From the IMG/VR virus record IMGVR_UViG_3300015241_000149, positions 1 through 64,000 of that record: a DNA stretch of 64,000 nucleotides; one strand, given 5' to 3'. Of the stretch, positions 7,139 to 64,000 are shown piece after piece (within the stretch, counting starts at the first letter, position 1; every line of letters begins with the position of its first letter). Position numbers and translations under genes: made by a program. This DNA is from a virus. A model generated the notes under the pieces. That model had not been told where the DNA came from, ran no database searches, and was given only the letters and a program-made list of their open reading frames with translations.

Positions 7139-7142
7139 GCAG

Positions 7143-7210
7143 TGCGCCCGCCGGGACTCGAACCCGAAACCTCCGCCTTAGCGAGGCGGTGCTCTACCGG
7201 GCCGACGCGC
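7143..7210 (-). tRNA. degenerate tRNA-like sequence, probable anticodon GCT (Ser)
   Basis: Read on the minus strand it has a good anticodon arm (CCGCC, loop TCGCTAA, GGCGG) and a good T arm with GGTTCGAGTCCC. The acceptor stem pairs at only about five of seven positions, the D loop is short, position 33 is C rather than T, and the long variable arm expected of tRNA-Ser is missing. It could be a decayed phage tRNA, or the 3' half of a host tRNA kept as an attachment core. No integrase is visible to favour the latter. Confidence 0.45.
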
Positions 7211-7280
7211 CGTGCACAGCGATGCCGGTGGTGGTCCCCTTGAGCTACAGACGCGGTTATTGCGGGGAGCACCGTACCAT

Positions 7281-26002: not shown

Positions 26003-26224
26003 ATGGCTTCGCGTCCCTCTGTCCCGCCGCTGCTCGCCAACCCCGACTCGGCCAAGCTCATCGCTACTCTCATCGACACCCAGGCGCACATCATCGAGCG
26101 CGATGGTGACGCCGTCGGTACCGGCCTGGCGATCCTGCTCAAGACGCTCTCTACCCAGATCCTGGACATGCACAACGTCAAGTCCTCAGGCAACGGCGCG
26201 TCGGCGCACTCCTGGGAGAACTGA
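26003..26224 (+). CDS. hypothetical protein, first of terminase block
   Basis: 73 residues started at ATG 26003 behind GAGGAG. Helical, with AKLIATLIDTQAHIIERDGD. No recognised family. Its stop overlaps the next start. Confidence 0.6.
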   Translation: MASRPSVPPLLANPDSAKLIATLIDTQAHIIERDGDAVGTGLAILLKTLSTQILDMHNVKSSGNGASAHSWEN

Positions 26225-26379
26225 TGGGCTTCTGGTCCAAGACGGTCCGCAGTACGCACCGGATGAACGAGCGCGTCCCCACCGGTGAGACCGGGCGCAA
26301 CCTGACCCAGGCATCCAGCGGCTACGTCATCCGCAAGCCCCGGTCCAAGCCGGTGAAGGCCCACAAAAGGGAGAAGTAG
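26224..26379 (+). CDS. small basic hypothetical protein
   Basis: 51 residues, very basic, ending in RSKPVKAHKREK. Could bind nucleic acid. Coupled to the upstream gene by overlap. Confidence 0.55.
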   Translation: MGFWSKTVRSTHRMNERVPTGETGRNLTQASSGYVIRKPRSKPVKAHKREK

Positions 26380-26774: not shown

Positions 26775-27079
26775 CCGGCCCCCGACCCGATGCCCAACTG
26801 CGAGCCGTCGTAGTGGAGCGCACCAACCGCCTGAGTCTGGAATTCGTGCGGTTCTGCCTGTATGGCGCGGTCATCCTGCATTTCGCCGTTGTCGGGCTGC
26901 TCGGCTACTGGATCTACGTCCACATCGGGCCGGGGCTATTTTTTGGCTACGGCGTCATCGTCACGGTGGCGTGGGTGACCTGGCTGCGCGCCGTCGAGTT
27001 CCATCGAGCTTTCCCCGGCGCCGAAGACCAGATGCAGGTCCGCTCGGACGGCCCGGCCCGGCTGCGGAGAGGCGAATGA
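26771..27079 (+). CDS. two-helix membrane protein
   Basis: 102 residues from GTG. Hydrophobic segments at about 28-50 and 55-70 (YGAVILHFAVVGLLGYWI, FFGYGVIVTVAWVTWL) and a charged tail. Lies immediately before TerS and overlaps it as ATGA. Confidence 0.6.
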   Translation: MTGPRPDAQLRAVVVERTNRLSLEFVRFCLYGAVILHFAVVGLLGYWIYVHIGPGLFFGYGVIVTVAWVTWLRAVEFHRAFPGAEDQMQVRSDGPARLRRGE

Positions 27080-27591
27080 GCTCTCTGGCGAACGAGGACG
27101 GCACCCCGCCGCGCGACGGCCAAGGCAAGTTCATGATCTCTCCGGAGTCCCTGGAGCGCGATGCCCAGGCCGCCCGGCTGCGAGCCTCTGGTTGGTCGGC
27201 AACCCGGGTTTCGAATCACCTGGGCTACGGAAGTCGACAGAACGTGGACCGGGCCGTCCGGCGCGCCATGGACCGCATCATCGTGCCGGCGATCGAGGAG
27301 GCCCGCAAGTTGATGCTGGATTCCATCGCCGAGCAGGCGGAGACGCTCCTGGAGATCCAGCAGGCGGCCATCGCCGACGGCGACCTGACGGTGTGGCTGC
27401 GTTCGGTGGACCAGTTCGGCAAGTTGGATGACCGCAAGGCCCGCCTGCTCGGCCTGTTCGCCCCCGACAAGATCATGAACCTGAACGGCCGGGGTGAGCC
27501 TGAGGTGCCACCGGCACTGATCGAGAACGCCCGCAAGATCGAAGAACAGGCCGCCAAAGAGGAAGCCGAGCTGAATGGGCGCTCCGACTGA
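27076..27591 (+). CDS. terminase small subunit-like protein
   Basis: 171 residues. AARLRASGWSATRVSNHLG is a helix-turn-helix, followed by a long helical region (IIVPAIEEARKLMLDSIAEQ) suited to oligomerisation and an acidic tail. The position, overlapping the start of the TerL gene by 17 bases, supports a TerS that recognises DNA and hands it to TerL. The sequence alone is not diagnostic, since other HTH proteins look similar. Confidence 0.65.
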   Translation: MSSLANEDGTPPRDGQGKFMISPESLERDAQAARLRASGWSATRVSNHLGYGSRQNVDRAVRRAMDRIIVPAIEEARKLMLDSIAEQAETLLEIQQAAIADGDLTVWLRSVDQFGKLDDRKARLLGLFAPDKIMNLNGRGEPEVPPALIENARKIEEQAAKEEAELNGRSD

Positions 27592-29170
27592 GTACGTACC
27601 CGCGCTGTATGGGCCGCCAGGCTCCCCAGAGATCGACCGGATCCTGGACAAGATCGGGTACGGGCTGCTCGACCTGCCCCACTACCGGCGGCTCTACACC
27701 AAGCATGATCCTTTGCTATTCCACATGTTGTACCTCACTCCGCCCAATGACGAGCACACCTTCATCTCGCCAGAGACCGGGCGCGACATCCACCTGAGCC
27801 AGTTCCACATCGACGCCTGCCAGCGCGCGCTGGGTTGGCGGGGCAATTTGGGGTTCGCGCAGCATCGGCATTTCGATGTCGCGCCCCGTGGCGCCGGGAA
27901 GTCCACGCTGCACTTCAAGGCCAATCCGCTCTGGGCTCTGGCGCACGGGCACCGCCGGTTCATGTTCGCGTGCGCGTACAACGACACCCAGGCCGCCCGG
28001 CACCTGCGCAACCTGCGAAACCTATTCACCGGCAACGAACTGCTACAGCGGGACTATCCCGAGCTCTGCACGCCGCGCAAGTCCACCGACAACGAGTACC
28101 ACGCTGAGTCGGGCGCGGTGATCATGGCGTACGGGATCGGGTCAACCAACCTCGGTGCTAACGTGCGCGGCCGGCCTGATTTGATCTTGGTTGATGATCT
28201 TGAACCGGCGGAAGGCAGCGTTGGCTACTCGGCGTACCAGAAGTCGCAGCTACAGTCCGCGCTGGTCAACGGTGTGTTCGGGATGAATCCCAACGCGGCT
28301 GTGCAGATGTGCGGCACGGTGACCATGTACGGCTCCATGGCCCATGAGGCGGTCTGGCATGCCCACGGCCAGGAACAGGACTGGATCCGCGAGCAGAACA
28401 TCGACGTGCACTACTACTCCCCCATCGTGTTGGGCGCCGACGGGCGCGAGGAGTCGTTCTGGCCGGCCCGCTACTCCCTCGATGAGCTCAACCGGATGCG
28501 CTACGGCGCTAAGGACGGTGGCCCCACCCGGGATTGGCTCCTCAACTTTCAAAATAACCCGCGCGCTGCCGAGGATGGTCTGTGGGCTCCTGGTGACGTG
28601 ACCGTGGTTGAGGACGCGCCTGAGGGCTTGGACGCCGGTTCGGGTGGGGTGACCGTGGTGGACGCGGCGAACCGACCCAGGGTGACATGGCGGGTGCTCT
28701 CGATAGACCCGTCGGTGACCGATGGCAAGCGCTCCGACTACACCGGCATCTCCACGGTCGGCGCGACCATCCACGGCCGGGCGATCATCGAAGACGCCAT
28801 CGGGATACGCGGCACCCCGACCGACCTCAAGGCGATTCTGTCCCGGGCGCTGCGGGAGAACGGCACCATCTCAGACGTCGTCGTGGAGACCACTCAGGGC
28901 GGCCATTGGGTGCTTGAGGCAATCGTGGGGATCTGCCGGGAGTTCGAGGTGCGGCTCTGGGAAGTCAAGCCGTCGCTGAGCAAGCACTCCCGTTACAAGC
29001 GCTGGGTGGATCTCTACCAGACCGGGCGTTGCCTGCACGACGGGGAATTGCCGGAGCTGACCGTGCAGCAGAATAGCTACCCCCGTAATGAATTCGATGA
29101 TGTCATGGACGCTAGTCTTATCGGAGTAGAGAAGGTTCTTGGCCTCACCGAGGGGGTGCGGGTCTTATGA
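27575..29170 (+). CDS. terminase large subunit, intact ATPase and nuclease
   Basis: 531 residues. Walker A is APRGAGKST (Lys109), Walker B LILVDDLEP (Asp207-Asp208) and the coupling motif GTVTMYGS. The RNase H-fold nuclease has VLSIDPSVT (Asp378), VVVETTQGG and NEFDDVMDASL (Asp508, Asp509, Asp512). This is the T4 gp17-like packaging motor, which pumps DNA into proheads and cuts it. It is preceded by a TerS-like gene but is 34 kb from the portal, protease and capsid genes, on the other strand, and a second TerL lies beside the portal gene. A phage satellite, a duplicated motor or a specialised DNA-processing enzyme are possible explanations. Confidence 0.9.
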   Translation: MGAPTEYVPALYGPPGSPEIDRILDKIGYGLLDLPHYRRLYTKHDPLLFHMLYLTPPNDEHTFISPETGRDIHLSQFHIDACQRALGWRGNLGFAQHRHFDVAPRGAGKSTLHFKANPLWALAHGHRRFMFACAYNDTQAARHLRNLRNLFTGNELLQRDYPELCTPRKSTDNEYHAESGAVIMAYGIGSTNLGANVRGRPDLILVDDLEPAEGSVGYSAYQKSQLQSALVNGVFGMNPNAAVQMCGTVTMYGSMAHEAVWHAHGQEQDWIREQNIDVHYYSPIVLGADGREESFWPARYSLDELNRMRYGAKDGGPTRDWLLNFQNNPRAAEDGLWAPGDVTVVEDAPEGLDAGSGGVTVVDAANRPRVTWRVLSIDPSVTDGKRSDYTGISTVGATIHGRAIIEDAIGIRGTPTDLKAILSRALRENGTISDVVVETTQGGHWVLEAIVGICREFEVRLWEVKPSLSKHSRYKRWVDLYQTGRCLHDGELPELTVQQNSYPRNEFDDVMDASLIGVEKVLGLTEGVRVL

Positions 29171-32461: not shown

Positions 32462-32599
32462 ATGACGCCTGACGACATGACTCCTGATGAGCTGCTCGAC
32501 TACCGGGAACGGCTTCTCGATGAGACGGATCAGGACCAGCTCTGGCGCAACTTCCAGCACATCGCCACGTTCGAGCACAAGGTGGATGAAAGGCCCTGA
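32462..32599 (+). CDS. small acidic hypothetical protein
   Basis: 45 residues, starting MTPDDMTPDE, helical. Overlaps the next gene's ATG as TGATG. Confidence 0.5.
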   Translation: MTPDDMTPDELLDYRERLLDETDQDQLWRNFQHIATFEHKVDERP

Positions 32600-33222
32600 T
32601 GACTGACACCCGTGTGTTGTTCGCCTGCGTGTGGGCTACGGCGCTGATGGTCGCCGGTGGTTGTGGTTCCGCGTCCACTCCGGTGCAGGACAATGCCGCG
32701 CCCGTCGCACCGCAGCCGCACACCATCAAGACCCTGCCGCCGAGCTCGCACGTCACCGGCCTGCCCTACCCGCCGCGCTGCGTCATCGAAACCTCGAACG
32801 GTCACGCACTTCCGGATGTCTCGTGCACCCCCGGCGCGGTTACTTCGGGCGTCACCCAGGCGAACATGCATTCGACGATCTGCAAGACCGGCTGGACCGC
32901 GACCGTCCGGGCGCCGGAGTCGGAGACCGGGCCGGTCAAGAAGACCGCGATCACCTCCTACAGCGAGACAGCCCTGAGCTCAACGGCAATCGAGCTCGAC
33001 CACCTGGTTCCCTTGGAGCTGGGCGGCAGCAATGACACCGCCAACTTGTGGCCAGAACCGAGCGACCTACCAGGCCAGGGCTTCCGGAACACCAAAGACA
33101 ACGTCGAGAACGACATGCGCAAGGCGGTGTGCTCAGGGAAGGTTAGCCTGAGCGCGGCACAGACCGCCATCTCGAACAACTGGGGAACAGCTGAAGCGAC
33201 GGTAGGCATCGGGGGGCACTAA
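32599..33222 (+). CDS. lipoprotein with HNH nuclease domain
   Basis: 207 residues. The lipobox AGGC (Cys22) ends a signal peptide. The C-terminal domain has IELDHLVPLELGGSNDTANL followed by WPEP and KDNVENDMRKAVCSGKVSLS, the pattern of a family of secreted actinobacterial HNH nucleases: DH for metal and general base, N in the loop, KD and C-x-G later. A Pro/Thr/Ser-rich spacer lies between lipid and domain. Anchored outside the membrane, it could cut DNA of infecting phages at the cell surface. Enzyme activity is inferred from the motif. Confidence 0.75.
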   Translation: MTDTRVLFACVWATALMVAGGCGSASTPVQDNAAPVAPQPHTIKTLPPSSHVTGLPYPPRCVIETSNGHALPDVSCTPGAVTSGVTQANMHSTICKTGWTATVRAPESETGPVKKTAITSYSETALSSTAIELDHLVPLELGGSNDTANLWPEPSDLPGQGFRNTKDNVENDMRKAVCSGKVSLSAAQTAISNNWGTAEATVGIGGH

Positions 33223-34836: not shown

Positions 34837-36840
34837 CTACCCCAATATCCTCGGCGCTCCGGCGTGCACCCCGACTAGTTCCGTTGCCCACGGCGCGTGC
34901 GGCACACCGTGAGTCGTTGGGACGCCGGCATGCACACCGGGGACGGCGCTGGGCGGTCCGGGATAGGGCTCCCAGTCGAGGCGGACCATCACCGAGATCG
35001 AACCGACGGCGCCCAAGGTCGCACTGGCCGCAACGTTCAGGGTGGCCAGTGCGGTCACCGTGGAGAACGCGTGCAGTGACGCGGCCCCCAACGCGGTAGC
35101 CAGGGCCGTAGCGGAAACCGAACCTGTCGCGGAGAGGGTGGCGGCGCTGTGTTGGGTGACGACGGCCAGCGCGGTGATCGAACCAGTACCGGCCATGCTC
35201 GCCGCGCCGGCTTCTGTGTCGAGCGCTGCCGCTGCGAGGGTGCCTGTGCCGGCGAGGGTGGCTGTGCTGGGAACTGTGTTGCTGGCGGTGGCTGTGATGG
35301 AACTGGTGGCGGCGAGTGCGGCTGTGCAGGGGACTGTGTTGAGCGCTACCGCTGTGAGGGTGCCCGTGCCGGCGAGGGTGGCGGTGGCGGGCTGGATCAC
35401 GGTCGCGCTGGCGGTAAGGGTGCCGGTACCTGCCAGGGTTGCCGAGGCTACGTCGGTGTTGAGCGCGGCCGCTGTGATCGAGGTGCTGGCGGCGAGGGTG
35501 GCTGTGCACTCGACCGTGTTCTCTATCGACGCGGTGACCGAACTCGTGGCCGCCATGCTCGCCGACACCATCTCGGTATTGAGCGCTGCGGCTGTAACTG
35601 TGCCTGTGCCGGCGAGGGTAGCTGTGCACGGGACTGTGTTGTCCGCGCTGGCCGTGACAGAGCTCGTGGCGGCCAAGGTCGCTGAAGCGCTGGCGAAGCC
35701 GCCTGTGTCCGCCGTGAGGGTGCCGACGCCGTGCAGGGTGGCCGTGCAGGGGACTGTGTTGAGCGCCGCCGCTGTGAGGGTGCCGGTGCCAGCGAGGGTG
35801 GCTGAGGCTATGTCGGTGTTGTCGGCGGCGGCTGTGAGGGTGCCCGTGCCTGCCAGGGTTGCGGACGCTACAACCGTGTTCTCTGCCGTCGCGGTGACTG
35901 AGGTGGTGGCGGCGAGCGCTGCCGAGCAAACCACCGTGTTGTCGACGCTGGCGGTGACCGAGGTAAGGGCGGCTATGGTCGCGGCGCCGGTGGTGGTGTC
36001 CAGGATGTTGGCCGCGACGGAACCAGCGCCGGCCAACGTTGCCGAGGCGAAGTACGTGGCTGTGGCGTTGGCTGTGACTGTGCCTGTGCCGGCGAGTGTG
36101 GCCGACGGGTAGGTGGTGTTGTCCGCCGACGCGGTGAAGGTGCCAGTGCCAGCCAGCACCGCTGAGGCTACGTCGGTGTTGCTGGCGCTGGCCGTGACCG
36201 AACCTGAGGCCGCCAGGGTTGCTGAACACACAACCGTATTGGTCGCCGACGCGGTGACTGAGCTCGTGGCGGCCAGTGAGGCGGAGACCGGGACCGTATT
36301 GAGAGCAACGGCGGTGACTGTGCCCGTACCTGCCAGGGTTGCCGCGCCGGCTTCGGTATCGAGCGCTGCCGCTGTGACTGTGCCCGTGCCGGCGAGCATT
36401 GCCGAACACACAACCGTATTGCTGGCGGTGGCTGTGACTGTGCCTGTGCCGGCGAGAGTGGCTGTGCATACAACTGTGTTGCTAGCGACGGCGGTAACTG
36501 TGCCGGTGCCGGCGAGCGTGGCTGTGCAGGGAACTGTGTTGCTGGCTACCGCTGTAACCGAACCAGTGCCGGCGAGGGTGGCTGTGCAGGGAACTGTGTT
36601 GCTAGCTACCGCCGTGACTGTGCCGGTGCCGGCAAGGGTGGCTGTGCATACAACTGTGTTGCTAGCGACGGCAGTAACTGTGCCGGTGCCAGCGAGGGTG
36701 GCTGTGCAGGGAACTGTGTTGCTAGCTACCGCTGTGACTGAGCCGGTACCAGCGAGGGTGGCGGACGCGGCTATGTTCTGCGCGGCCGCGACAATCAGCT
36801 GCGGATGACGGTTCGGGAAGCTTCTGCCTAGGCGTGCCAC
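34837..36840 (-). CDS. repeat-rich surface or fibre protein
   Basis: 667 residues from GTG. After about 24 residues come roughly thirty 20-residue repeats of the form (S/T)ATLAGTGTVTAVASNTV, then a distinct end (ISVMVRLDWEPYPGPP...). The Ser/Thr/Gly/Val strand-turn pattern suggests a beta-solenoid or beta-strand repeat. Position beyond the tail and lysis genes, with two fibre-like genes beside it, suggests a tail fibre or virion decoration. The opposite strand is also open through the repeats but lacks ribosome sites and sense of direction. Confidence 0.75.
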   Translation of the reverse strand: MARLGRSFPNRHPQLIVAAAQNIAASATLAGTGSVTAVASNTVPCTATLAGTGTVTAVASNTVVCTATLAGTGTVTAVASNTVPCTATLAGTGSVTAVASNTVPCTATLAGTGTVTAVASNTVVCTATLAGTGTVTATASNTVVCSAMLAGTGTVTAAALDTEAGAATLAGTGTVTAVALNTVPVSASLAATSSVTASATNTVVCSATLAASGSVTASASNTDVASAVLAGTGTFTASADNTTYPSATLAGTGTVTANATATYFASATLAGAGSVAANILDTTTGAATIAALTSVTASVDNTVVCSAALAATTSVTATAENTVVASATLAGTGTLTAAADNTDIASATLAGTGTLTAAALNTVPCTATLHGVGTLTADTGGFASASATLAATSSVTASADNTVPCTATLAGTGTVTAAALNTEMVSASMAATSSVTASIENTVECTATLAASTSITAAALNTDVASATLAGTGTLTASATVIQPATATLAGTGTLTAVALNTVPCTAALAATSSITATASNTVPSTATLAGTGTLAAAALDTEAGAASMAGTGSITALAVVTQHSAATLSATGSVSATALATALGAASLHAFSTVTALATLNVAASATLGAVGSISVMVRLDWEPYPGPPSAVPGVHAGVPTTHGVPHAPWATELVGVHAGAPRILG
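34990..36768 (-). repeat. about 30 tandem 60-base repeats
   Basis: Coding repeats with a 60-base period, each one 20 codons. Most similar at the right end (36420-36768), where several neighbouring units are almost identical, and more diverged to the left, which fits recent expansion at the N-terminal side. Confidence 0.85.
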
Positions 36841-49590: not shown

Positions 49591-52500
49591 CGCTTCTGCC
49601 GCCCGACAGAGTTAGCCAGCTTGTCGTTGTTCCGCTTGATCTCCACGCGCATGGTGTGGGTGATGTCGCGGCCGTCGATGTAGCAATGCACGTGCGTTTC
49701 TCCGCCTCCCTGACCGCCTTGGTTCGCCGGCCCGGACGCCGGGGTGATCGGGGGTGTGCCGGCGATGATCGAGGTGCCACCACCGGCCTGGCCGAGCACC
49801 CCCATCTTGGCGAGCATGGCGTCCGCTTCCTTGGTCGCCGCGCTGGCCAGCGACAGAGCCGACGTGGTGATGAACCCCAGGGATGAGGTGATGCCGGTGG
49901 CCAGGCTCTTACCGAACACCTCCCCGGCACTGGTCGCGGACCCAGCCGCCGCCGTAGCGCCCTGCGCGGCCGCCTCAACAGTGGATTTGCCCAGGTCAGA
50001 TGCGGCTTTCTGAGCGCCCTTCGAGCCGTCCTTGATGCCGTTGGCCAGGCCCTGATCGAAGTCCATACCGGCCTGATGCATGATCACCGATGGGGATTGG
50101 CAGCCGAGGGCGCTCTGCGCGGCCTGCGACACCTGATCGCCCATGGACTGCGCGGCGCTCACCGGCGCCGGGGTGTTCTGCTGGATGCCGTCGGCGCAGC
50201 CCTGCGCCATGTCCGAGCCGGCTTGGGTCAACGGCGCCTTGGCGCTCTCCGCCGCTGACACCGCACCCTGACAACCCGACTCGATCCCGCTCTTGATCTT
50301 TTGCCCGCCGGACTGCGCGGCGTCGCCGGCCTGCTTACAGCCGTCCCCGATGCCTGAGGCAATCTGCTGTCCGCTGGACTCGGCGGCCTGGCCGGCCTCC
50401 CGCATGCCCCCTTCGGCCTGTTTCATGATGTCCTTGAGCTGGTTGGTGTCCAGTCCGGCCTTCTTCGCTTGCCGGCCGAGGCTCTCGAAGTGGTTGCCCG
50501 CGTTGCTGGCGGCGTCGCCCGCGCCCTGGAAGCCGCTCTTGGCCGACTGCGCCGCCTGAGCCGCCTGACCCAGGCCCTGCGCGGCGGATTGCCCGGCCTT
50601 ATCGGCGCCTTGCTTGACCTTGTTGCCCATCGACGTGCCCGCGTTACCCAGGTCGTTGAGCGACCCGATCCCCACCCGAGCGCTGCTGGAGATCTTGTTC
50701 ATGCCCGACTGAACGGAGTTGCCGGCCTTGTCCATGCCCTGCTTAACGCCATTTGCGGCCTTATCCGCGCCCGCGCTGGCAAGACCGCTGAACTTGTTCA
50801 TGCCCGACTGCATAGAGCCGTTCATCTTGTTCAGGCCCTGCTTGGTGCCCGAATCCATCTTGGCCCAAGCATCGGTTTCGTGGTGCCACATCTTGTCCAT
50901 GGCCGCGCCGAAGTTACTAACCGCCTTGCCCATCCCCGAGGCAATTTCGGACGCTATCTTGCCTACCCCACCATGGGCGGCCGCTCCCATTTTTTGGAAT
51001 CCACGTTCCACGTTGGTCGCCATGCCGTCCATGGTGTCCCTGGCAATGTCGCCAATCCCGGAAAACCCAGTCTTGGCCCACGCCGACATCGCGTCCATAT
51101 TGGTTTTCGCATCGGCGGCCATGCCACGGAACACCTTGCCGACAGCGGCCCCCATCTTGCCGACCTCGCCGACGACATCGGACGCGGCCTTACCGACTGA
51201 CTTAGCCGCGTTGGCGACCGACTGGCCGAACTGGTCCGCCGCCTGTTTACCTACCCCGAAGCTCTGGGCGGCCTTCGAGACGGCCTGGGCCATCGCGTCG
51301 TACGCGGTACTGGCCTGCTTGCTAGCGTCGGCGCCCTTCTTCATGTCGGCGTTGAAGTTGTTCTGCTCGCGGTCGGCCTCCAGGATGCTGCGCGCGTCCT
51401 TGGCTACGGCGGCGGCATGGTCGCGGGCGGCGGCGGCGGCCTTCTGCTGCTCGGCGGTACCGCTCTCCATCGCCTTGTTGAGCTCATGCTGGGCGTCGTT
51501 GAGCTCGGTTTCGCGTTGGTGCAACTGCTTCAGATCCTCGTTGAAGCCCTTCACGGAGTTGCCGAGACTGTCGACGGCGCCCTGACCCTGCTTAGCGCCG
51601 CCGCCCAGGCCGCCCGGCCCGTTGCCGAGCCCCTTGCCGGCGTCCCCACCCGCTTTGCCGGTGTCGTTGAGGTCCTTCTGCTTCTGCTTGAGCTCCTTGT
51701 CCAGGGCTTGCAGGTTGCCGTCTAGGCCCTGCACCGATTTGCTCAGGTTGTCGGTCTGGCTGGCCGTCGCCGACATGTCGGAGCCCATCTTGGAGATGGC
51801 TTGCCCGGTCGAGCCGGCGGCCTGCCCCAGCTTGGAGATGTCGCCGGTGGCCTTGGCGACCGCCTTGTCCAGGGCTTCAATGCCGGCGATGGCGGGCTGC
51901 ATGTCGGCGGCCATGGTCTTGACGCCGCTGTCCAGCGCGGTCAGGTCGCCGGTGAGGGTCTTAACGTCCTTGTCGAGCTGAACGACGTCCTTGTCGAGCT
52001 GGACGACCAGCTTGTCCAGCGCGTCAGTGTCGGTGGCGAGCGCCTTCTCCTCGGCGTCGAAGTCCTTCAGCGAGGTCACGATCGTCTTGAGCGACGCCAC
52101 CAACTTCGTGCCCAGCGCGGTGGCCAGGTCGTTCACGGCCTTGACGAGCACGTTCGTGATGTCGCCAGCCAGCGTCTTCACCATGTCGTCGAGCGACTTG
52201 AGCTCGGTCTTGAGCGTGGTGATGGACTGGACCAGCTTGTTCCGTATATCCCCGTCGACCATCGTCAGAGCACCGTCGAGCTTGGTCTTCAGATCGTCGC
52301 CCAAGGTGGTGATCTCGGTGCCCAAGCTCTGCGAGGCGGTGCCCAGGGCATCCATCTGGCCAGCGGTGTCCTGCGCGGCACCGCCAGCACTTGCGATCGA
52401 GCCTGCCGCCGCCTGGTGCTGAGTACCTGAGGTGGCGGCGGCCGATCCCGCGCCCTTGTGTGCCTGGGCGGCTTGCTGGTTAGCGGCCGTGTTCTGCTGG

Positions 52501-54656
52501 AGTGCTTGGGTGTGTTGTTTGGTCGGAGGGACCGCGCCGAGGAAGTCTGAACCGTTCTTGGACACCTCGGGGGACAGGTTCTTGATTGCGTTGGTGGCGT
52601 CGTCGACCGGCGGCGTGACAGCCTGCATTGAGCCGCCGAACTGCTTCGCGGCCGCGCCGGCATCGTCAAGCGGCGGTGGGATGCCCTGAACAGTGTTGGA
52701 CAGGTCTTTGGCTGCGTTGCCGAGCGCACCCATAGCGTCGTTGGTGCCCTTGGCACTGTCGGTGGCGTCATGCTGCGCGCTGGTGGTACCGAGTAGGCCG
52801 TCCTTGAGCCCCTTGAGCGTGTTCACGGTGCCCGACACTGCACCGCCCAGGTCAGACAACCAGTGCACCCCGACGGAGATGGCGTCCCAGACGACCTTGA
52901 ACACGTCGGCGAGCTCGTGCATCAACGTGATAAGTCCGGTGATGATGCTAACAAGCGTATTTATCGAACCAGCCATAAGCGAGAATGCACCCTTGATCAA
53001 TCCCGCGTTTTGCGCCACTGTCGACGCAATTTCGTCAAAGGCAGGCTTGATCTGAGCCAATGCGTTAACAAATGCACTGCCGAACGTTGTCGCTATCGAG
53101 ATGACGTCTTGCAACTCGCCCGAAACAGCCCTAGAAGCCCCGGACACCACGCCGGAGAACGAGGTAATCTGCTTCTCGCTGTTCCCGATCGCGGCCGTGA
53201 CCGCCAGCGCCAGGTTGGTGAAGGCAGTCATGGCGGGTTGCACTGCCGGCGCGAGCTTCTGCGCCATCCCGGTGGCGGCATCCAGGATCTGCGTCATGTC
53301 CCGGGAGAACGCCTGGAAGCTCTGACCCCCGATGGTGATCAAGACGGCGCCCATCCGGCCCACCGCGCCGATCATGGTGGACACCCCGGCCAGGGCTTTT
53401 GTCTGGATGTCGCTGCCCAGATTGGCGAACGCTGTGCTCATTTGCTTGATCGCGCCTATCCCGGCTTGAACAATGCCGGGCATAGATTGGAAAAACACCT
53501 TGAAGCTAGGCGCGAGCGTGTTAGTGATGTCGCGGAAACCATTCGCCAGCTCGATCAGGGAAGTGACCGCCGGTTGAATGCCGGTCTTGGCGGCGGCGGC
53601 GATAGTTGCAAAGGCTTCCTTAAGCGGCGCGGCAATCTGTGGCAAAGCAGCCCGTACCGTTCGAATCATCTCATTGATGACCTCATCGAACGGCTTCGCT
53701 ATGTCGGTAAAGTCCTTCTTGGCCTCGGCGACCAGGTCTTTCCAACCCTGGGCAATCTGCTTGTTGCCCTTTTCCGCCATGATGGCGAACCCGGTGATCG
53801 CCGCGCCGGCCGCCAACATGAGCGCGCCAAAACCGCCGAACGCCACCGCCGCGATGACGCCCAGCGCACCAACAGCGGTGCCGAGAGCGCCCATCACCAA
53901 CGCAGCGATACCACCAACAGTGGCGAAGGTCGTCATTATCCCAATGAGCGCCTGGAAACCGCCTACCACAGCTCCAATGATGTCGCCGATCGGGCCCAAC
54001 GCACTCTTCAGGCTGTCAAAAGCATCCACGACCGGCTTGATAACCTCTTGCAAGTCCTGGAAGACCGCCGTCGTGTTGCCTATCAGCTGGTCCATCGCGG
54101 TGACGGTGGATTCGGTGGCTTGAATGCCCGATTCCATGTCCCCGATGCCTTGGGTGACGTCGGTGATGGCCGTTTCACCCGCGATAAGCCCCTGGTCGAA
54201 TGCTCCGATGGCCCCAGATGCCGCACCCGCGACAGATACCAGATCTCCGATAGCGGTGCCCGCGATATTCAGGTCAGACCCGAGCGTCTTGCCATCGTTG
54301 TCTAGATTTTTGACGTCATTGGAGAGATTGCCTATAGATTTTCCAGCGGATTCAGAGTCTCTCTCAGCGGCAGCGACAGCTTTATCAAACTCAGTATTAA
54401 AGTCTTGCAGAGCTGTTTTCGCTTCATCAAGTTGCGACTTATCCGTTGTGATCTTTATCGTTTTATCGCCAACGGCGTCTTCGGCGGTCTTGACTTCGGC
54501 CAGCTTAGCGTTGAGGTCGTCCAGCCCCGACGTTTCAACCTTGATGAGGATTGTCTTGTCGTTGAGCTGGTCGATGGCGGCATTCAGCGCTTCTATCTGC
54601 GCGATCGCGTCGGCGGCGTCGGCGTCAATGTGGATGGACATTGAAGAGCTCGCCAT
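49587..54656 (-). CDS. tape measure protein
   Basis: 1689 residues, the longest protein here. Long helical regions, a Gly/Ala-rich hydrophobic stretch near residues 210-300 (membrane-inserting in related phages), many Lys/Asp/Gln repeats and a C-terminal part with SPSVIMHQAGMDFDQGLANG, as usual. At roughly 0.15 nm per residue the tail would be near 250 nm. It begins just after the tail-assembly chaperone reading frame with GGAGG before ATG 54656. Confidence 0.9.
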   Translation of the reverse strand: MASSSMSIHIDADAADAIAQIEALNAAIDQLNDKTILIKVETSGLDDLNAKLAEVKTAEDAVGDKTIKITTDKSQLDEAKTALQDFNTEFDKAVAAAERDSESAGKSIGNLSNDVKNLDNDGKTLGSDLNIAGTAIGDLVSVAGAASGAIGAFDQGLIAGETAITDVTQGIGDMESGIQATESTVTAMDQLIGNTTAVFQDLQEVIKPVVDAFDSLKSALGPIGDIIGAVVGGFQALIGIMTTFATVGGIAALVMGALGTAVGALGVIAAVAFGGFGALMLAAGAAITGFAIMAEKGNKQIAQGWKDLVAEAKKDFTDIAKPFDEVINEMIRTVRAALPQIAAPLKEAFATIAAAAKTGIQPAVTSLIELANGFRDITNTLAPSFKVFFQSMPGIVQAGIGAIKQMSTAFANLGSDIQTKALAGVSTMIGAVGRMGAVLITIGGQSFQAFSRDMTQILDAATGMAQKLAPAVQPAMTAFTNLALAVTAAIGNSEKQITSFSGVVSGASRAVSGELQDVISIATTFGSAFVNALAQIKPAFDEIASTVAQNAGLIKGAFSLMAGSINTLVSIITGLITLMHELADVFKVVWDAISVGVHWLSDLGGAVSGTVNTLKGLKDGLLGTTSAQHDATDSAKGTNDAMGALGNAAKDLSNTVQGIPPPLDDAGAAAKQFGGSMQAVTPPVDDATNAIKNLSPEVSKNGSDFLGAVPPTKQHTQALQQNTAANQQAAQAHKGAGSAAATSGTQHQAAAGSIASAGGAAQDTAGQMDALGTASQSLGTEITTLGDDLKTKLDGALTMVDGDIRNKLVQSITTLKTELKSLDDMVKTLAGDITNVLVKAVNDLATALGTKLVASLKTIVTSLKDFDAEEKALATDTDALDKLVVQLDKDVVQLDKDVKTLTGDLTALDSGVKTMAADMQPAIAGIEALDKAVAKATGDISKLGQAAGSTGQAISKMGSDMSATASQTDNLSKSVQGLDGNLQALDKELKQKQKDLNDTGKAGGDAGKGLGNGPGGLGGGAKQGQGAVDSLGNSVKGFNEDLKQLHQRETELNDAQHELNKAMESGTAEQQKAAAAARDHAAAVAKDARSILEADREQNNFNADMKKGADASKQASTAYDAMAQAVSKAAQSFGVGKQAADQFGQSVANAAKSVGKAASDVVGEVGKMGAAVGKVFRGMAADAKTNMDAMSAWAKTGFSGIGDIARDTMDGMATNVERGFQKMGAAAHGGVGKIASEIASGMGKAVSNFGAAMDKMWHHETDAWAKMDSGTKQGLNKMNGSMQSGMNKFSGLASAGADKAANGVKQGMDKAGNSVQSGMNKISSSARVGIGSLNDLGNAGTSMGNKVKQGADKAGQSAAQGLGQAAQAAQSAKSGFQGAGDAASNAGNHFESLGRQAKKAGLDTNQLKDIMKQAEGGMREAGQAAESSGQQIASGIGDGCKQAGDAAQSGGQKIKSGIESGCQGAVSAAESAKAPLTQAGSDMAQGCADGIQQNTPAPVSAAQSMGDQVSQAAQSALGCQSPSVIMHQAGMDFDQGLANGIKDGSKGAQKAASDLGKSTVEAAAQGATAAAGSATSAGEVFGKSLATGITSSLGFITTSALSLASAATKEADAMLAKMGVLGQAGGGTSIIAGTPPITPASGPANQGGQGGGETHVHCYIDGRDITHTMRVEIKRNNDKLANSVGRQKR

Positions 54657-55487
54657 TGTCGCCTCCTTCCGCGATGGATGTTGAGAAGAAACCCTCAGGG
54701 ACTTCTACTTCTTCGGCCGCCGGGTCCGCCATGCCGTAATTGCTCAGATCCGCAACCCCAAATGTGCCGAACAGCAACGTCGGGTCGTCGGCGTCGAGCT
54801 CTGTGCGGTCCTCGGCGGAGTGCTCGTACTTGATCAGATAGTCCTTGAGCCTGGCTGGGATCTCGGGGTCCTTGCGGTACGGAGCGACCGCGTGCAGGGC
54901 TATCCAGCCGGCGTTGTAGTCCGCGCGCCGGTCCCCGATCGGGCCTTCGAGCTCCTCGAACTCAGCCCACTCCGCCAGCTCCGTCGCCGAGATGCGCCTG
55001 AGCAGCTCGGCGACGGTCCCGATCTTGAGATGACCGGCTAGTCGGAAAACGAATCGTCGGTCGGGTCGGTGCTGGAGACTTTTCCCGCCTTCGCTTCCTC
55101 ATCGTCGTCAGACAGCCCAGACAGCCGCCGCGCGGTCTTGGCCAGCAGTTCCGAGCCGCCCGAGGGCAGTTTGCCGAGCTCGGCGACGCCGCGTTTGGTG
55201 TTGGGCCAGAGCCTGTCACCCTGCTCGGTACGCAGCGCGTAGGCCAGCAGGCGCAGGGTGTTCTCGGTCAGGGACAGCGTCAGCTTGGTCTCTTTGACCT
55301 GGTACATCGGCTGGCGGTAGAGATCGAGCTCTTCGCCGGTCAGCTCGTGCACCCACACATGGCACTTCCACTGCGGGACGAACACCTTGACGCGCTCCAC
55401 GACGGCGCGGATCTGGTTGGGGTTCGACAGCGTGGGGTACTCATCCGCGCCGGTTACTTCCGGGGTTCGATAGTCCAGTTCAGTCAA
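54625..55487 (-). CDS. tail-assembly chaperone, frameshifted long form
   Basis: Made from the short chaperone by a -1 slip at GGGAAAA (55086-55080). The new frame is open without stops from the slip to 54625 and encodes AELLRRISATELAEWAEFEE and DRRADYNAGWIALHAVAPYR, matching the C-terminal half of actinophage chaperones. It overlaps the first bases of the tape-measure gene. Both forms are normally made at a fixed ratio and help the tape measure fold or recruit tube subunits. Confidence 0.85.
55038..55487 (-). CDS. tail-assembly chaperone, short form
   Basis: 149 residues ending in an acidic tail (DDDEEAKAGKVSSTDPTDD). Typical position between connector or tail genes and the tape measure. The N-terminus has YPTLSNPNQIRAVVERVKVF. 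Shares its start with the frameshifted long form. Confidence 0.8.
   Translation of the reverse strand: MTELDYRTPEVTGADEYPTLSNPNQIRAVVERVKVFVPQWKCHVWVHELTGEELDLYRQPMYQVKETKLTLSLTENTLRLLAYALRTEQGDRLWPNTKRGVAELGKLPSGGSELLAKTARRLSGLSDDDEEAKAGKVSSTDPTDDSFSD
55080..55086 (-). promoter_or_regulatory. -1 ribosomal frameshift site
   Basis: On the minus strand G GGA AAA in the zero frame of the chaperone, a perfect X XXY YYZ heptamer. The -1 frame after it has no stop for about 450 bases, while the zero frame ends at 55038. Confidence 0.85.
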
Positions 55488-58748: not shown

Positions 58749-59996
58749 TCAGGTCGCCGGGCTCTTGAACGCCTTCACAGCGGCCGGGTCGTCCGGACGG
58801 GCGTCCAGGCGCAGGAAGCCCAGGAATCCGACCTGTAGGAAGTCGGCGTAGCGCTCCGTGAGCCGCAGCATGTGCACGTCCAGCACCTGACGGATGATGT
58901 AGGCGCGCTGGAAGTCGCCGAACAGGATCGACAGGCTGTTCGCCGCCAACGACGGCATGCCCTGATCGATCGCGTAGGGCTGGCCGTTGATCGTCGGGCT
59001 CATGCCCGGTACCGGAATCGGCACCCAGAGCGGCCGGCCGAACCCGTCAACGATCTTCCTGATCACCGCAAGGGTGTTGTCGTTGAGCAGGAAACGGCAG
59101 TTCTGCCGGTAGGCCGGGTCGAGCGCGTGCTCCAGGTCGATCAGGTTGTTGTAGGTCAGCACCCCGATGTTGCCGGCAGTGGGCTGCACAGCGACCGTGA
59201 CGCCGGTGGTGACGCCGGTGGGCTGACCGCTGCCGGTCCCGTTGATGAAGTGCTGCGACACCGCGCGACCCAGCCGGATACCGAGGTGCGTCGGCAACCA
59301 GGTGTCCAGGTCGAACACCGAGTCCTGCAAGATCTGCAAGGAGGCCAGAACCAGGTTCGAGGAGTACATGTAGGCCCCGATGGTCCGGGTGCCGAACGTG
59401 GTCTCAACCTCGGCGACCTGCGTGTTCTCCCCGATGATCTGGCCAACCTCGGAGGTGCCGTCGTGGGTGGGCCACTGGAGCGGGTTGCCGGTCGCGGTCT
59501 GGATGACGTTGGCGAAGTTGATCAGACCGCCGTACGCCTTCATCGTCTCAACCAGCACCTGGCGGTAACCCGGCGGAACCAGGTAGCCACCGACGGCGCC
59601 CGAAGTGGTGCCCTGCGCGGCGCGGGCATCCATGTAGTGGTTCGCCAGCAGTCCCCGACGCTCGGGGTTCAGCCCTTCCAGGCCGCCGCGCATGTAGGTG
59701 CGGAAGGCGTCCTCGTACTCCACGCCGCGCCGGGCTTCGAGCTCCTCGCGGGTTTCCTTGCGCTCATCCACGCCGTTGGCGTTGAGCACCCGGGAGTAGT
59801 CCGGCGAGTCGAGCTCGGCCATCCGCCGGTTGCGCTCGATCGTGGCGAGCACCTTGTCCAGGTCAGCGTTGGCCGCGTTCCAGTTGGCGTCCTCCTCGGC
59901 GGTGAGATCCCGACCTTCGGCCTTGGCCGTGTCGACGATCTCCTTCATCCTGTTCCAGATCCGGTGCTGGGGATCCAGCTCGTCGCGCTCACTCAT
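58749..59996 (-). CDS. major capsid protein (HK97 fold)
   Basis: 415 residues. Coiled-coil N-terminal delta domain (EEDANWNAANADLDKVLATIE), a maturation segment, then the HK97 core with GGYLVPPGYRQVLVETMKAY, GTRTIGAYMYSSNLVLASLQ and FGDFQRAYIIRQV. Follows the protease in the same operon, as in HK97-like phages. The delta domain acts as scaffold and is normally removed. Confidence 0.9.
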   Translation of the reverse strand: MSERDELDPQHRIWNRMKEIVDTAKAEGRDLTAEEDANWNAANADLDKVLATIERNRRMAELDSPDYSRVLNANGVDERKETREELEARRGVEYEDAFRTYMRGGLEGLNPERRGLLANHYMDARAAQGTTSGAVGGYLVPPGYRQVLVETMKAYGGLINFANVIQTATGNPLQWPTHDGTSEVGQIIGENTQVAEVETTFGTRTIGAYMYSSNLVLASLQILQDSVFDLDTWLPTHLGIRLGRAVSQHFINGTGSGQPTGVTTGVTVAVQPTAGNIGVLTYNNLIDLEHALDPAYRQNCRFLLNDNTLAVIRKIVDGFGRPLWVPIPVPGMSPTINGQPYAIDQGMPSLAANSLSILFGDFQRAYIIRQVLDVHMLRLTERYADFLQVGFLGFLRLDARPDDPAAVKAFKSPAT

Positions 59997-60061: not shown

Positions 60062-61270
60062 CTACTTCGGAAGGCGGAGCGCGACGCTCAGGGCGCGCAT
60101 GCGTGCTTCCGCCATCTCCAGCGCCATATGCCGAGTGGTCACGGCCGGCTCGGTCGGTGCTGGTTGGTGCCCCTGGCCAGTGGTCTCACCCGGCTGGTCA
60201 GAGTTCTTGTCGTCGGCGTCGTCATCTGAGACTTGGACACCGAAACGTTTGAGAGCGGCCTGGATCTTGTCCTTGATCGAAGCAAGCTGCTCAGCGGTGT
60301 ACAGAGCCGCGTTGCTGGCCTTGTTGATATAGCTCCAGGCCGCCTTGGCGTGCTCCTTGGTGTCGATGGGGTAGCGTTTTTTTCCATCGGACTGAAGTCC
60401 CGGGTCTGCGTAGGCGACATCGCCATAGGGTTTCTTCGGGTCGCGCTCCTCGATGCCCAACTCGTCAGCGTTGTCCTCAACAGGCTCAGCGCCGGCGGTC
60501 GCGGTGGCCACCAACACGACGGCGTCGGCGTGCGCCCGCTCCACGACGCGCACCTTGTCCTTGATCTTGTACCGCAGGTCCAGCTTCCGGGTGAGCCACT
60601 CGGGCAGCTCGGGGTCGTCGCCCCGGTCTTCCAGCATCAGTAGCCACTCGGGCTTGTACCGCTCGATCAGGCTGCGAACGCGTTCCCCACCGGCGGCGTA
60701 ACGACTGCGCAGCGCGCGCAAGCCGGCGTCGGTCTCCTCATAGGCCGGGAAAGTCACCGGCGACACCTCGAGGAGCTGCACCTCGTTGACCCGACGCACC
60801 TCAACCTCGTGCTGGCCGTCGTCACGGGTGATGGTTTCAGTGGTCCAGGTGTCCTTGCCGGCCGGCACCCGGAACCCGAAGCTCATCCCGGTGATGTTGC
60901 CGTTGCGCAGGTTGATCTTCAGGTCGTTGACGTAGCTCAGCTCGGAGTCTAGATCGGCATCGACAGCCAGCCCGCGCACGTCTTGAGTCAGCCGCAGCGT
61001 GCCGGCGGAGCGTCGTGCGACCACCTTCGAGCTGTCGTGGTCTATCAGCATCCGGGCGTCGCCCTCGGAAATCGTCTTAGTGAACGCACCGGGAGCGATT
61101 TCCTCGTAAAAACCCCAGGTCAACGGGTTCCCGATGGCGGTCCGGGAGTTGAATACCGCCGCATGGCCGCCGAACCGGGGCACAGCGCCCTCGGTGGGGA
61201 TGATGGCCAGGGCGGCAGCGTCCAGAGACAGGCCGCGACGCTCGTCGGCTACCGGAAGGCTGCGAGACAT
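60062..61270 (-). CDS. HK97-type prohead protease with C-terminal extension
   Basis: 402 residues. GGHAAVFNSRTAIGNPLTWG, MLIDHDSSKVVARR (catalytic His) and ITGMSFGFRVP (catalytic Ser) mark the U35/S78 protease. The remaining ~200 residues contain LLMLEDRG..., YGDVAYADPGLQSDGKKRYP and a helical domain, a fusion found in other actinophages. It cuts the capsid delta domain. ATG 61270 is favoured by AGAGGAA; ATG 61294 is also possible. Confidence 0.85.
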   Translation of the reverse strand: MSRSLPVADERRGLSLDAAALAIIPTEGAVPRFGGHAAVFNSRTAIGNPLTWGFYEEIAPGAFTKTISEGDARMLIDHDSSKVVARRSAGTLRLTQDVRGLAVDADLDSELSYVNDLKINLRNGNITGMSFGFRVPAGKDTWTTETITRDDGQHEVEVRRVNEVQLLEVSPVTFPAYEETDAGLRALRSRYAAGGERVRSLIERYKPEWLLMLEDRGDDPELPEWLTRKLDLRYKIKDKVRVVERAHADAVVLVATATAGAEPVEDNADELGIEERDPKKPYGDVAYADPGLQSDGKKRYPIDTKEHAKAAWSYINKASNAALYTAEQLASIKDKIQAALKRFGVQVSDDDADDKNSDQPGETTGQGHQPAPTEPAVTTRHMALEMAEARMRALSVALRLPK

Positions 61271-61290: not shown

Positions 61291-62538
61291 TCATGAATTC
61301 GCTGACGACGGTCCGAGTGAGGTGCTGGTCAGCGCGTTCTCGTTGGCTTGCTGCGCGGTGACCGAATCCAAGTACTTGTCCCCGCCCTCACGCGGCGGAA
61401 GATCTTCATCCTCGCGGATCTCGTTGGCGTTCAAGACACCCATCTCGAACATGACCCGGCTCCACTCGGCGCGGGCAATTGAGTCACCGCGCAGCAACTG
61501 GCGAATCGAGTACCGGGCTATCAACCCGTCGCCGAGGAGCTCTTTGGTGACCCGCTGCTCGGTGGTGGCCAGCCAGGTGGGGTGCAGGTCGTACATGACG
61601 AACCCCAAGCCCTGCTGCTCCAGGCCGGTACCCCAGGTCGTCGACTTCTCGTGGTCGAAAAGCAGGAATGGCGGAACGCCGTAGTAGCGCCCGAGCTCGG
61701 TGAGCTGGAAACGCCGGCTCTCCAGAAGCTGCGCGTCGTCGTTGGGCATCGTCAGGCTCTGGAACTTCGCGCCGGAGTCCAGCACGGCCACCCGATGCGC
61801 CCGAGCCAGCCCGCCGAGCTTCTCCTGCCATTGCACTTGCAGCTTCTCGGCCTGCTGTTGGGTCAGCCGCTGCTCGGTCTGCAAGATGCCCGAGGTCAGG
61901 TTGCCCGAACCGAACAGGGTTGAGGCGTACTTCTCCGCGCCCAGAGCCAGCCCGATGCCTTGGCGGGCCATCTTGATGGGGCTCATCCCGCACACGCCGT
62001 CGTATCCCAGGCCCGGGAGGTGGAAAATCTCGTTCGAGGTCATCGCGTGGGTGCGGCCGGCATCGTCGGTGACCTGAAAGACCTTCCCGGACGGGTTCGC
62101 CGGCGTCGGCTTGGCCTTTCCGGGGATCACGTGGTTCGGCATGATCGGCATGAGGTACTGGATGGTGCCGTTGCCCCGTTTGAAGATCTTTTGAGCGTAG
62201 AAGTTGCCCCACAGGGTGCGGTGGACGTAGCTCAGCTTCCAGAACTCCAGTGGGGTCAAATCTGGGTGCGGATTGTCCAGAAGTGAGTGCTCGACGGGCT
62301 GTTTGGTGGTCTTGTCGTAGACATTGAGCGGCAAAGCGCCGCCCAGACCCGAAATCAGGCTCACACAGCGCCATACCGCCGAGAAATTGAGCGAAGTGAG
62401 CTCGGTGACGGCCATCCCGGCGTCGGTTGGTGACCCTCCGAGCACCGAAAGCAGGCTCAGATCGGTCAGCGGGACGGCCGGATTCTCGATGTTGAGACGC
62501 TGCTCGGCGTCGCGCGGGGCCCAACGGAACAGGCTCAC
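61291..62538 (-). CDS. portal protein
   Basis: 415 residues from GTG. LNFSAVWRCVSLISGLGGAL, LDNPHPDLTPLEFWKLSYVH, FQVTDDAGRTHAMTSNEIFH and AYCGVPPFL-like YYGVPPFLLFDHEKSTTWG are typical of HK97-type portals. Twelve copies would form the DNA entry ring. Overlaps the upstream membrane peptide by GTGA. Confidence 0.9.
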   Translation of the reverse strand: MSLFRWAPRDAEQRLNIENPAVPLTDLSLLSVLGGSPTDAGMAVTELTSLNFSAVWRCVSLISGLGGALPLNVYDKTTKQPVEHSLLDNPHPDLTPLEFWKLSYVHRTLWGNFYAQKIFKRGNGTIQYLMPIMPNHVIPGKAKPTPANPSGKVFQVTDDAGRTHAMTSNEIFHLPGLGYDGVCGMSPIKMARQGIGLALGAEKYASTLFGSGNLTSGILQTEQRLTQQQAEKLQVQWQEKLGGLARAHRVAVLDSGAKFQSLTMPNDDAQLLESRRFQLTELGRYYGVPPFLLFDHEKSTTWGTGLEQQGLGFVMYDLHPTWLATTEQRVTKELLGDGLIARYSIRQLLRGDSIARAEWSRVMFEMGVLNANEIREDEDLPPREGGDKYLDSVTAQQANENALTSTSLGPSSANS

Positions 62539-62983: not shown

Positions 62984-64000
62984 TCACCAGATGTTGAAGC
63001 CGCCAGTGTCGCCGAACCCGTGACCGTGCTCCAGGGCCCAACCCCGGCCTTCCAGGGCCAACAACGCGGCCACGAACGGGGAAATGGTCCGCGCGTCCTT
63101 GCGCACCACCCGCTGGTAGTACTCCGGCATCCCCGCCGCGCGTTCCTCGGCCGACGGGCGGCGCTTGCCGTGCGCCAACGCGGTGGCCGCCGCCGCCCTG
63201 GACAGCTCCTCGCAGCCATCGTGGGTGAACATCTCGTTCTCACCCTTGGCCCGATGCGCGGTGGTGAACCGCTCGATCACCGCGTCCATCCGAGCTTCGC
63301 TGTTCAGCGGGAAGCTCATGATCCGGATCCGCTCCTCGCCCTGGTAGGTGGGCGGCTGGTCGTAGAGCCCAGACCAGGTGTCGAGCTCGTCTTGCCAACC
63401 GTGCGGCGCGGCGAACATCACGATGACGTCGTAGGCGGTGAACGCGTCCTGTACCGCCTCGTGCACCTGCGGACGTGGGATAACCCAGTCGGAGGGAGCG
63501 CCGATTGGCTTGTCCCACGTCCGCAAGTGGGTGGTGAACCCGTCGGAGAGCCTTGCCGCCACCAGGGACGTCGAATCCCGGTTCTGCGAGCCGTGAAAGC
63601 CGAGCGCGACCTGATCCCCGGGCTTGAGGCTCAACTCGCCCCGGGCCTGCGCCACCCACTTGATCATGTCGACCGCGTCGCTACTGCCGACGCTGATTTC
63701 GTTGAGGAAGAACCGCCGTGCCTCACCCTCGCCGGTCGCCGGGTCCCGGATCTCGGCGATGATGCGCTCAGGGCGCACCCAGCCGCCCCGGGAGATGGAC
63801 GAATCGCCGTAGACGTACTCGACCTCGCGCGACAGGGCCGCGTCGTCATCCAGGTCGATGCGGCCTCGCGGCGGGCGGTAATCGATGTAGACCCCGGGGG
63901 CCTTCGCCTGATACGTCAGCTGCGCGACCGAGCCCTGCCCGGGGTCCCAGGCGTTGGTGATCTCCAGCCAGCGGCCGTCCATGCCGGCGGCGTTACGTTT
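62984..64000 (-). CDS. terminase large subunit, C-terminal part, nuclease motifs altered
   Basis: The visible ~338 residues are the RNase H-like nuclease half; the ATPase half lies beyond the right edge. EIRDPATGEGEARRFFLNEI, LSLKPGDQVALGFHGS and RDSTSLVAARLSDG identify the actinophage TerL family. The first nuclease Asp, normally GFDGS, is His (63593-63595); the second, normally F(A/C)DxxxW, is Ala in MFAAPHGW (63407-63412); the third, normally (K)(I/V)DAAVA, is TISPFVAA (63077-63082). All three metal ligands are therefore missing. Adjacent to the portal, its usual place. Motif comparison is from memory and needs alignment. Confidence 0.85.
   Translation of the reverse strand, partial: KRNAAGMDGRWLEITNAWDPGQGSVAQLTYQAKAPGVYIDYRPPRGRIDLDDDAALSREVEYVYGDSSISRGGWVRPERIIAEIRDPATGEGEARRFFLNEISVGSSDAVDMIKWVAQARGELSLKPGDQVALGFHGSQNRDSTSLVAARLSDGFTTHLRTWDKPIGAPSDWVIPRPQVHEAVQDAFTAYDVIVMFAAPHGWQDELDTWSGLYDQPPTYQGEERIRIMSFPLNSEARMDAVIERFTTAHRAKGENEMFTHDGCEELSRAAAATALAHGKRRPSAEERAAGMPEYYQRVVRKDARTISPFVAALLALEGRGWALEHGHGFGDTGGFNIW

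Follow-up and report, generated by a model that had tools for sequence, protein, structure and literature searches.

The window is the stretch of 64,000 nucleotides that was analysed, and it comprises positions 1 to 64,000 of a source record of 66,853 bases. The structural genes of this phage are encoded on the minus strand near the end of the window and continue beyond it in the record, with the following features:

66312-66767, minus strand: TerS1, which lies upstream of TerL1 in the clade described below
62984-64000 in the window, on to 64618, minus strand: TerL1, an HK97-type large terminase with a predicted nuclease-dead RNase H domain
63593-63595, minus strand: H342 codon, at the first of the three metal-ligand positions, where intact relatives have Asp
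63407-63409, minus strand: A404 codon, at the second of these positions, likewise Asp in intact relatives
63080-63082, minus strand: S513 codon, at the third of these positions, again Asp in intact relatives
61291-62538, minus strand: portal protein (phrog_12), adjoining TerL1
60062-61270, minus strand: head maturation protease (phrog_80)
58749-59996, minus strand: major head protein (phrog_10)

TerL1 is a protein of 544 aa with a GTG start, and its frame runs past the window end at 64000 to position 64618. It has the two domains of an HK97-type motor, an ATPase and an RNase H-like domain, and the record holds the order TerS, TerL, portal, protease and capsid that is typical of this type, with small genes between TerS1 and TerL1. 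No portal other than the one listed above was found in the record. Sequence searches of the PDB gave no match, and nothing above cut-off was obtained for TerL1 against Pfam and NCBIfam. The TerS1 family, PHROG 226, carries the label 'minor tail protein'; this label may be wrong, since position and similarity suggest that TerS1 is a small terminase subunit.

The initial annotation read the three nuclease motifs of TerL1 as GFHGS, FAAPHGW and TISPFVAA, and all three are indeed present in one uninterrupted minus-strand frame. It also claimed that all three nuclease acids are absent, which proved correct and applies more widely than was noted, as a whole clade shares the loss. The alignment was built from 9 IMG/VR relatives, 80 relatives found by profile, the better of 18 sequences from genome assemblies and 7 named actinophage terminases. 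Among the 99 aligned sequences, Asp is found at all three columns in 84 and at none in 15, and no sequence has one or two. A 16th protein without the acids, L178 of G058, came to light through the second terminase described below. Acids at the three columns are thus seen in 0/16 members of this group, here called the dead clade, whereas Asp is found in each of the 66 intact subfamily proteins and in all outgroups that were checked. The dead-clade proteins have H, L or T at the first column, A, S, T or N at the second and S at the third, and the alignment shows no acids in register that a shifted motif could provide. In a tree that included the three ligand columns, the 16 proteins form one branch (SH-aLRT 99) within the subfamily that holds the 66 intact proteins, with L032 and L056 as the nearest intact rows. 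A sequencing error or frameshift is ruled out because the same loss is observed at 15 further loci, most of them 60-66% identical, and because the frame is uninterrupted. A DNA pattern scan for a dead-clade motif returned known members together with contigs in which no TerL1 was found by profile search. In addition, TerL1-like proteins are present in 1,986 named phage records, a sample of which was inspected. The phages with a nuclease-dead TerL1 are uncultured and probably actinobacterial, and one of them (G046:C361) was binned with a Nocardioides MAG.

The AlphaFold model of TerL1 (mean pLDDT 90.9) places H342 and A404 where beta1 and beta4 end, respectively, and S513 where the last helix begins, and these are the canonical ligand places. 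The best PDB match of TerL1 is HK97 TerL (6Z6D). The three metal-binding acids that are expected in an active RNase H/RuvC-like nuclease are therefore missing from TerL1. Each of D294, D347 and D429 is indispensable in the G20c terminase nuclease (PMC5389553). Together with the clade-wide loss of the ligands and the conserved fold, this strongly supports the prediction that the TerL1 nuclease is inactive. The annotation's proposal of an inactive nuclease with preserved surroundings is likewise strongly supported by the loss of the ligands in 16/16 members and the conservation of the fold. Residues that are conserved specifically in the dead clade are E411 (Tyr in intact proteins), A490-E491-[ED]492-R493, E499 and S513. 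By the Nei-Gojobori method, in which dS exceeds 1 in many pairs so that close pairs should carry weight, close dead-clade pairs have dN/dS values of roughly 0.01-0.16 for the nuclease half, and the median is 0.157 in the dead clade (65 pairs) versus 0.309 in intact relatives. These ratios indicate that purifying selection is acting on the dead nuclease domain, and the ATPase half is also under purifying selection, its dN/dS being far below 1 as well.

The initial annotation had suggested inspection of the ATPase half beyond position 64000, and there TerL1 keeps Lys83 of Walker A and Glu189 of Walker B. Walker A usually has Ser or Thr after the Lys and Walker B usually has Asp. In TerL1, the Walker A Ser/Thr is replaced by Asp84 and the Walker B Asp by Thr188 (GKD..TE), which differs from the HK97 type. 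The same pattern is common to 66/66 intact relatives, and outgroup terminases have Ser/Asp or Gly/Asp at these two positions. Judged from the alignment, it looks as if the two Mg2+ ligands of this packaging ATPase have reciprocally swapped places. The possibility that the Walker B 'TE' marks a dead ATPase was rejected, since it is common to the 66 intact relatives; the swap alone is no proof of a dead ATPase because intact swapped relatives without a PHROG 38 terminase exist. The D84 and T188 codons are located beyond the window end (L003:485-2119). In two dead-clade contigs, L011 and L012, an intein is found inside the Walker A of TerL1, between RPQK and SGKDP.

A second terminase cassette is encoded on the plus strand of the window:

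26224-26379, plus strand: small basic protein, a possible cassette member, with weak likeness upstream of TerL2 in other dead-clade genomes
26813-27079, plus strand: small membrane protein 5' of TerS2, a possible cassette member, with weak likeness in other dead-clade genomes
27076-27591, plus strand: TerS2, an HTH small-subunit-like protein directly 5' of TerL2 (PHROG 645)
27575-29170, plus strand: TerL2, an intact PHROG 38 large terminase of 531 aa
27881-27907, plus strand: TerL2 Walker A, APRGAGKST
28193-28198, plus strand: TerL2 Walker B Asp207-Asp208 (LILVDD)
28706-28708, plus strand: TerL2 nuclease Asp378, end of beta1
28886-28888, plus strand: TerL2 nuclease Glu438, end of beta4
29099-29110, plus strand: nuclease acids Asp509 and Asp512 of TerL2, where the last helix begins

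TerL2 matches the PHROG 38 profile with an E-value of 7e-52, and both Walker motifs and the nuclease acids are present. In its model (pLDDT 83.8), D378, E438 and D509/D512 are predicted at the same topological places as the canonical ligands. TerS2 would be the small terminase subunit, as suggested by its position and fold type. Its family, PHROG 645, is labelled 'RNase E', and this label may be wrong, as position and similarity point to a small terminase subunit here as well. A portal of the kind that directly follows a sole terminase does not lie beside TerL2 in the window's record, and a second portal or capsid set for TerL2 was not found with Rooney and MiniFlayer proteins as queries. The residue before the Walker A Lys is Ala instead of Gly in 4/6 dead-clade TerL2 proteins (G005, G046, G058, L149), and nearly all other TerL2 proteins keep GK. 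From this substitution, it is possible that the TerL2 ATPase is relaxed in the Ala-bearing members. The tree hinted at a polyphyletic origin of the dead-clade TerL2 proteins; since a single clade is compatible with the AU test (p 0.54), this is not claimed.

TerL2 is present in all five near-complete dead-clade genomes, namely the window's own record, G005 (68.7 kb), G006 (71.1 kb), G046:C361 (69.4 kb) and G058 (62.3 kb), and is absent from all 19 contigs of at least 37 kb in the same subfamily that have an intact TerL1. The single weak PHROG 38 match in this comparison, from a shorter contig, covers about 65 profile positions, and this stretch of the profile is also matched by the intein-bearing L011 and L012. 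G058 was found via its TerL2 and is therefore a biased draw, while the other four genomes were found via TerL1. The Fisher p of 2e-5 for the association is naive, as shared ancestry may leave one independent event, and the association of TerL2 with a dead TerL1 may rest on one ancestral event. TerL1 and TerL2 have an antisense arrangement in each of the five and lie 33-40 kb apart on a circular map.

The two terminases do not follow each other in sequence. Between G046 and G058, TerL1 is 95% identical but TerL2 only 38%, and between G005 and G058, TerL2 is 91% identical and TerL1 74%. The inspected translations show that the TerS2 type tracks the TerL2 type. TerS2-TerL2 is thus replaceable as a unit and was never found missing, which supports the view that TerS2 and TerL2 act together and suggests that TerL2 needs no finely tuned contact with TerL1. 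Relatives of TerL2 in viral contigs were not recovered with a single-protein query, and an alignment query gave 25 TerL2 contigs. These include five more distant uncultured phages in which TerL2 accompanies an intact TerL1 (G055, G056, G060, G062 and G063; L179-L182 and L190), with both nucleases intact. The presence of TerL2 beside an intact TerL1 implies that TerL2 is not solely a replacement for a lost nuclease. The favoured order of events is that TerL2 came first and permitted the loss of the TerL1 nuclease, as opposed to an independent role of TerL2. In G005 and G058, the TerS2-TerL2 cassette is located near integrase-like genes. Cargo genes are often found near integrase genes.

Several known systems share parts of this arrangement. 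HK97 TerL (6Z6D) and the HK97-type TerL proteins of the actinophages Kromp, Gretchen and KeAlii (PHROG 9-like) have the two-domain fold and the TerS-TerL-portal order of TerL1; unlike these, TerL1 does not have the three nuclease acids, and its Walker motifs carry the Asp84 and Thr188 exchange. The gp16 of phi29 resembles TerL1 as a packaging ATPase with an RNase H-like domain without catalytic residues, which in phi29 has been explained by unit-length genomes (PMC7672431). In contrast to gp16, TerL1 is a full-size terminase with a TerS, an HK97-type module and a second, intact terminase. Split terminases, with the ATPase and the nuclease on different genes as proposed here, are found in Gordonia phage Ewald and phi-PDS1, the latter being similar to that of Ewald (PMC10773633). 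In Ewald, one terminase is split into adjacent genes and the acids are present, whereas here TerL1 and TerL2 are each complete, lie far apart, and one of them is nuclease-dead. The nearest named relatives of TerL2, with about 30-33% identity and the same motifs, are found in Streptomyces phages (Rooney) and in the satellites MiniFlayer and Mulchroom. There, the PHROG 38 terminase is the only terminase found and its portal follows it; here, it is a second terminase without a portal. Also, in several viral contigs with TerL2 as the apparent sole terminase, a portal or portal-sized gene follows directly. The open-licence literature that was searched contains no description of a nuclease-dead HK97-type terminase or of two different terminases in one phage.

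The best explanation, which is considered reasonably likely, is that TerL1 is the translocating motor with a dead nuclease, and that TerS2-TerL2 recognises and cuts the concatemer. The nuclease chemistry of TerL1 would have been lost once, in the ancestor of the dead clade, and the domain kept as a structural part. The nuclease domains of HK97 sit under the portal and contact DNA (PMC10359639), and the vestigial nuclease of phi29 still binds DNA (PMC7672431). TerL1 would dock on its portal and pump DNA, and the cuts at the start and end of packaging would have been passed to the separately acquired TerS2-TerL2 in the non-structural region, with TerS2 choosing the cutting site. The loss of the ligands, the selection on the dead domain, the intact TerL2 motifs and the co-occurrence are read from the sequences themselves; translocation by TerL1, packaging cuts by TerL2 and site choice by TerS2 are the roles we infer. 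The division of labour is further favoured by the all-or-none ligand loss in one clade and by the retention of TerS1 and the portal with TerL1. On the other hand, TerL2 keeps an ATPase motif and so could do more than cut, and it has been swapped against a near-constant TerL1 with no sign of direct co-evolution. The initial annotation had suggested a split-function packaging arrangement with a second terminase as the cutting enzyme. The intact TerL2 and its distribution, present in all near-complete dead-clade genomes and absent from the near-complete genomes of the intact sisters, are as this arrangement predicts; its occurrence beside intact TerL1 in the five more distant phages means that TerL2 probably preceded the loss or has a further task. 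The wider description, a two-terminase system in which a dead HK97-type motor is combined with an interchangeable TerS2-TerL2 for site choice and cutting, has slightly more than an even chance of being correct.

Alternatively, these phages could package unit-length genomes, so that TerL1 needs no nuclease and TerL2 is unrelated, for example as an integrase-adjacent accessory cassette. The vestigial nuclease of phi29 gp16, which has this cause (PMC7672431), the TerL2 genes beside intact TerL1 and the integrase-like neighbours in G005 and G058 agree with this. It is nevertheless unlikely, as four near-complete records had no match to a protein-primed DNA polymerase (PF03175), the window's record gave no Rfam match, pRNA included, and there was no protelomerase match (PF16684). 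Moreover, TerS1 is retained, and the contrast of 5/5 and 0/19 in the distribution of TerL2 is left unexplained. It is rather improbable that TerL2 performs both translocation and cutting, with TerL1 kept for another purpose, for instance in assembly or regulation while bound to the portal. TerL2 does have both Walker motifs and the nuclease acids, and elsewhere its relatives are the only detected terminase. Yet the portal is part of the TerL1 module and none accompanies TerL2, TerL1 keeps Lys83 and Glu189 in an ATPase half under purifying selection, and four of the six dead-clade TerL2 proteins have the Ala before the Walker A Lys. Very improbable is cutting by TerL1 through an unusual metal site rebuilt from clade-specific acids: the dead clade, unlike the intact relatives, does conserve E411, E491/E492 and E499, but with H, L or T at the beta1 position and Ser at the last-helix position there is no conserved carboxylate at either, and each of the three Asp is indispensable in G20c (PMC5389553). 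That TerL1 is a decaying remnant can practically be dismissed, for although the catalytic residues are gone, dN/dS is far below 1 in both halves, none of the full-length dead-clade proteins examined has a stop (the sole stop is in the partial, intein-bearing contig L011), the TerS1-TerL1-portal order is retained and an intein is carried in the Walker A of L011 and L012.

Translocation and cutting are normally coupled within one packaging protein, and the dead clade appears to be a naturally occurring exception of the HK97 type. Should TerL1 move the DNA and TerL2 cut it, the motor and the nuclease could be studied separately without engineered mutants. Cutting specificity would then be replaceable while the motor and portal are untouched, and the interchangeable TerS2-TerL2 would be a natural experiment on the evolution of packaging specificity.

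Some other genes were observed in the window. The protein encoded at 32599-33222 (plus strand) combines a lipoprotein-like signal with an HNH-like motif (DHLVPLELGGSND) and has a weak Pfam HNH_5 match below cut-off. It was considered as the missing packaging nuclease and set aside because the lipoprotein-like signal at its N-terminus suggests otherwise. Long proteins of many short ATLAGTGTVTA-type repeats are encoded at 34837-36840 (minus strand) of the window and at 52002-54788 (plus strand) of G005, and these are probably minor tail proteins. The window also contains one tRNA gene, tRNA-Ser(gct), at 7142-7217 (minus strand).
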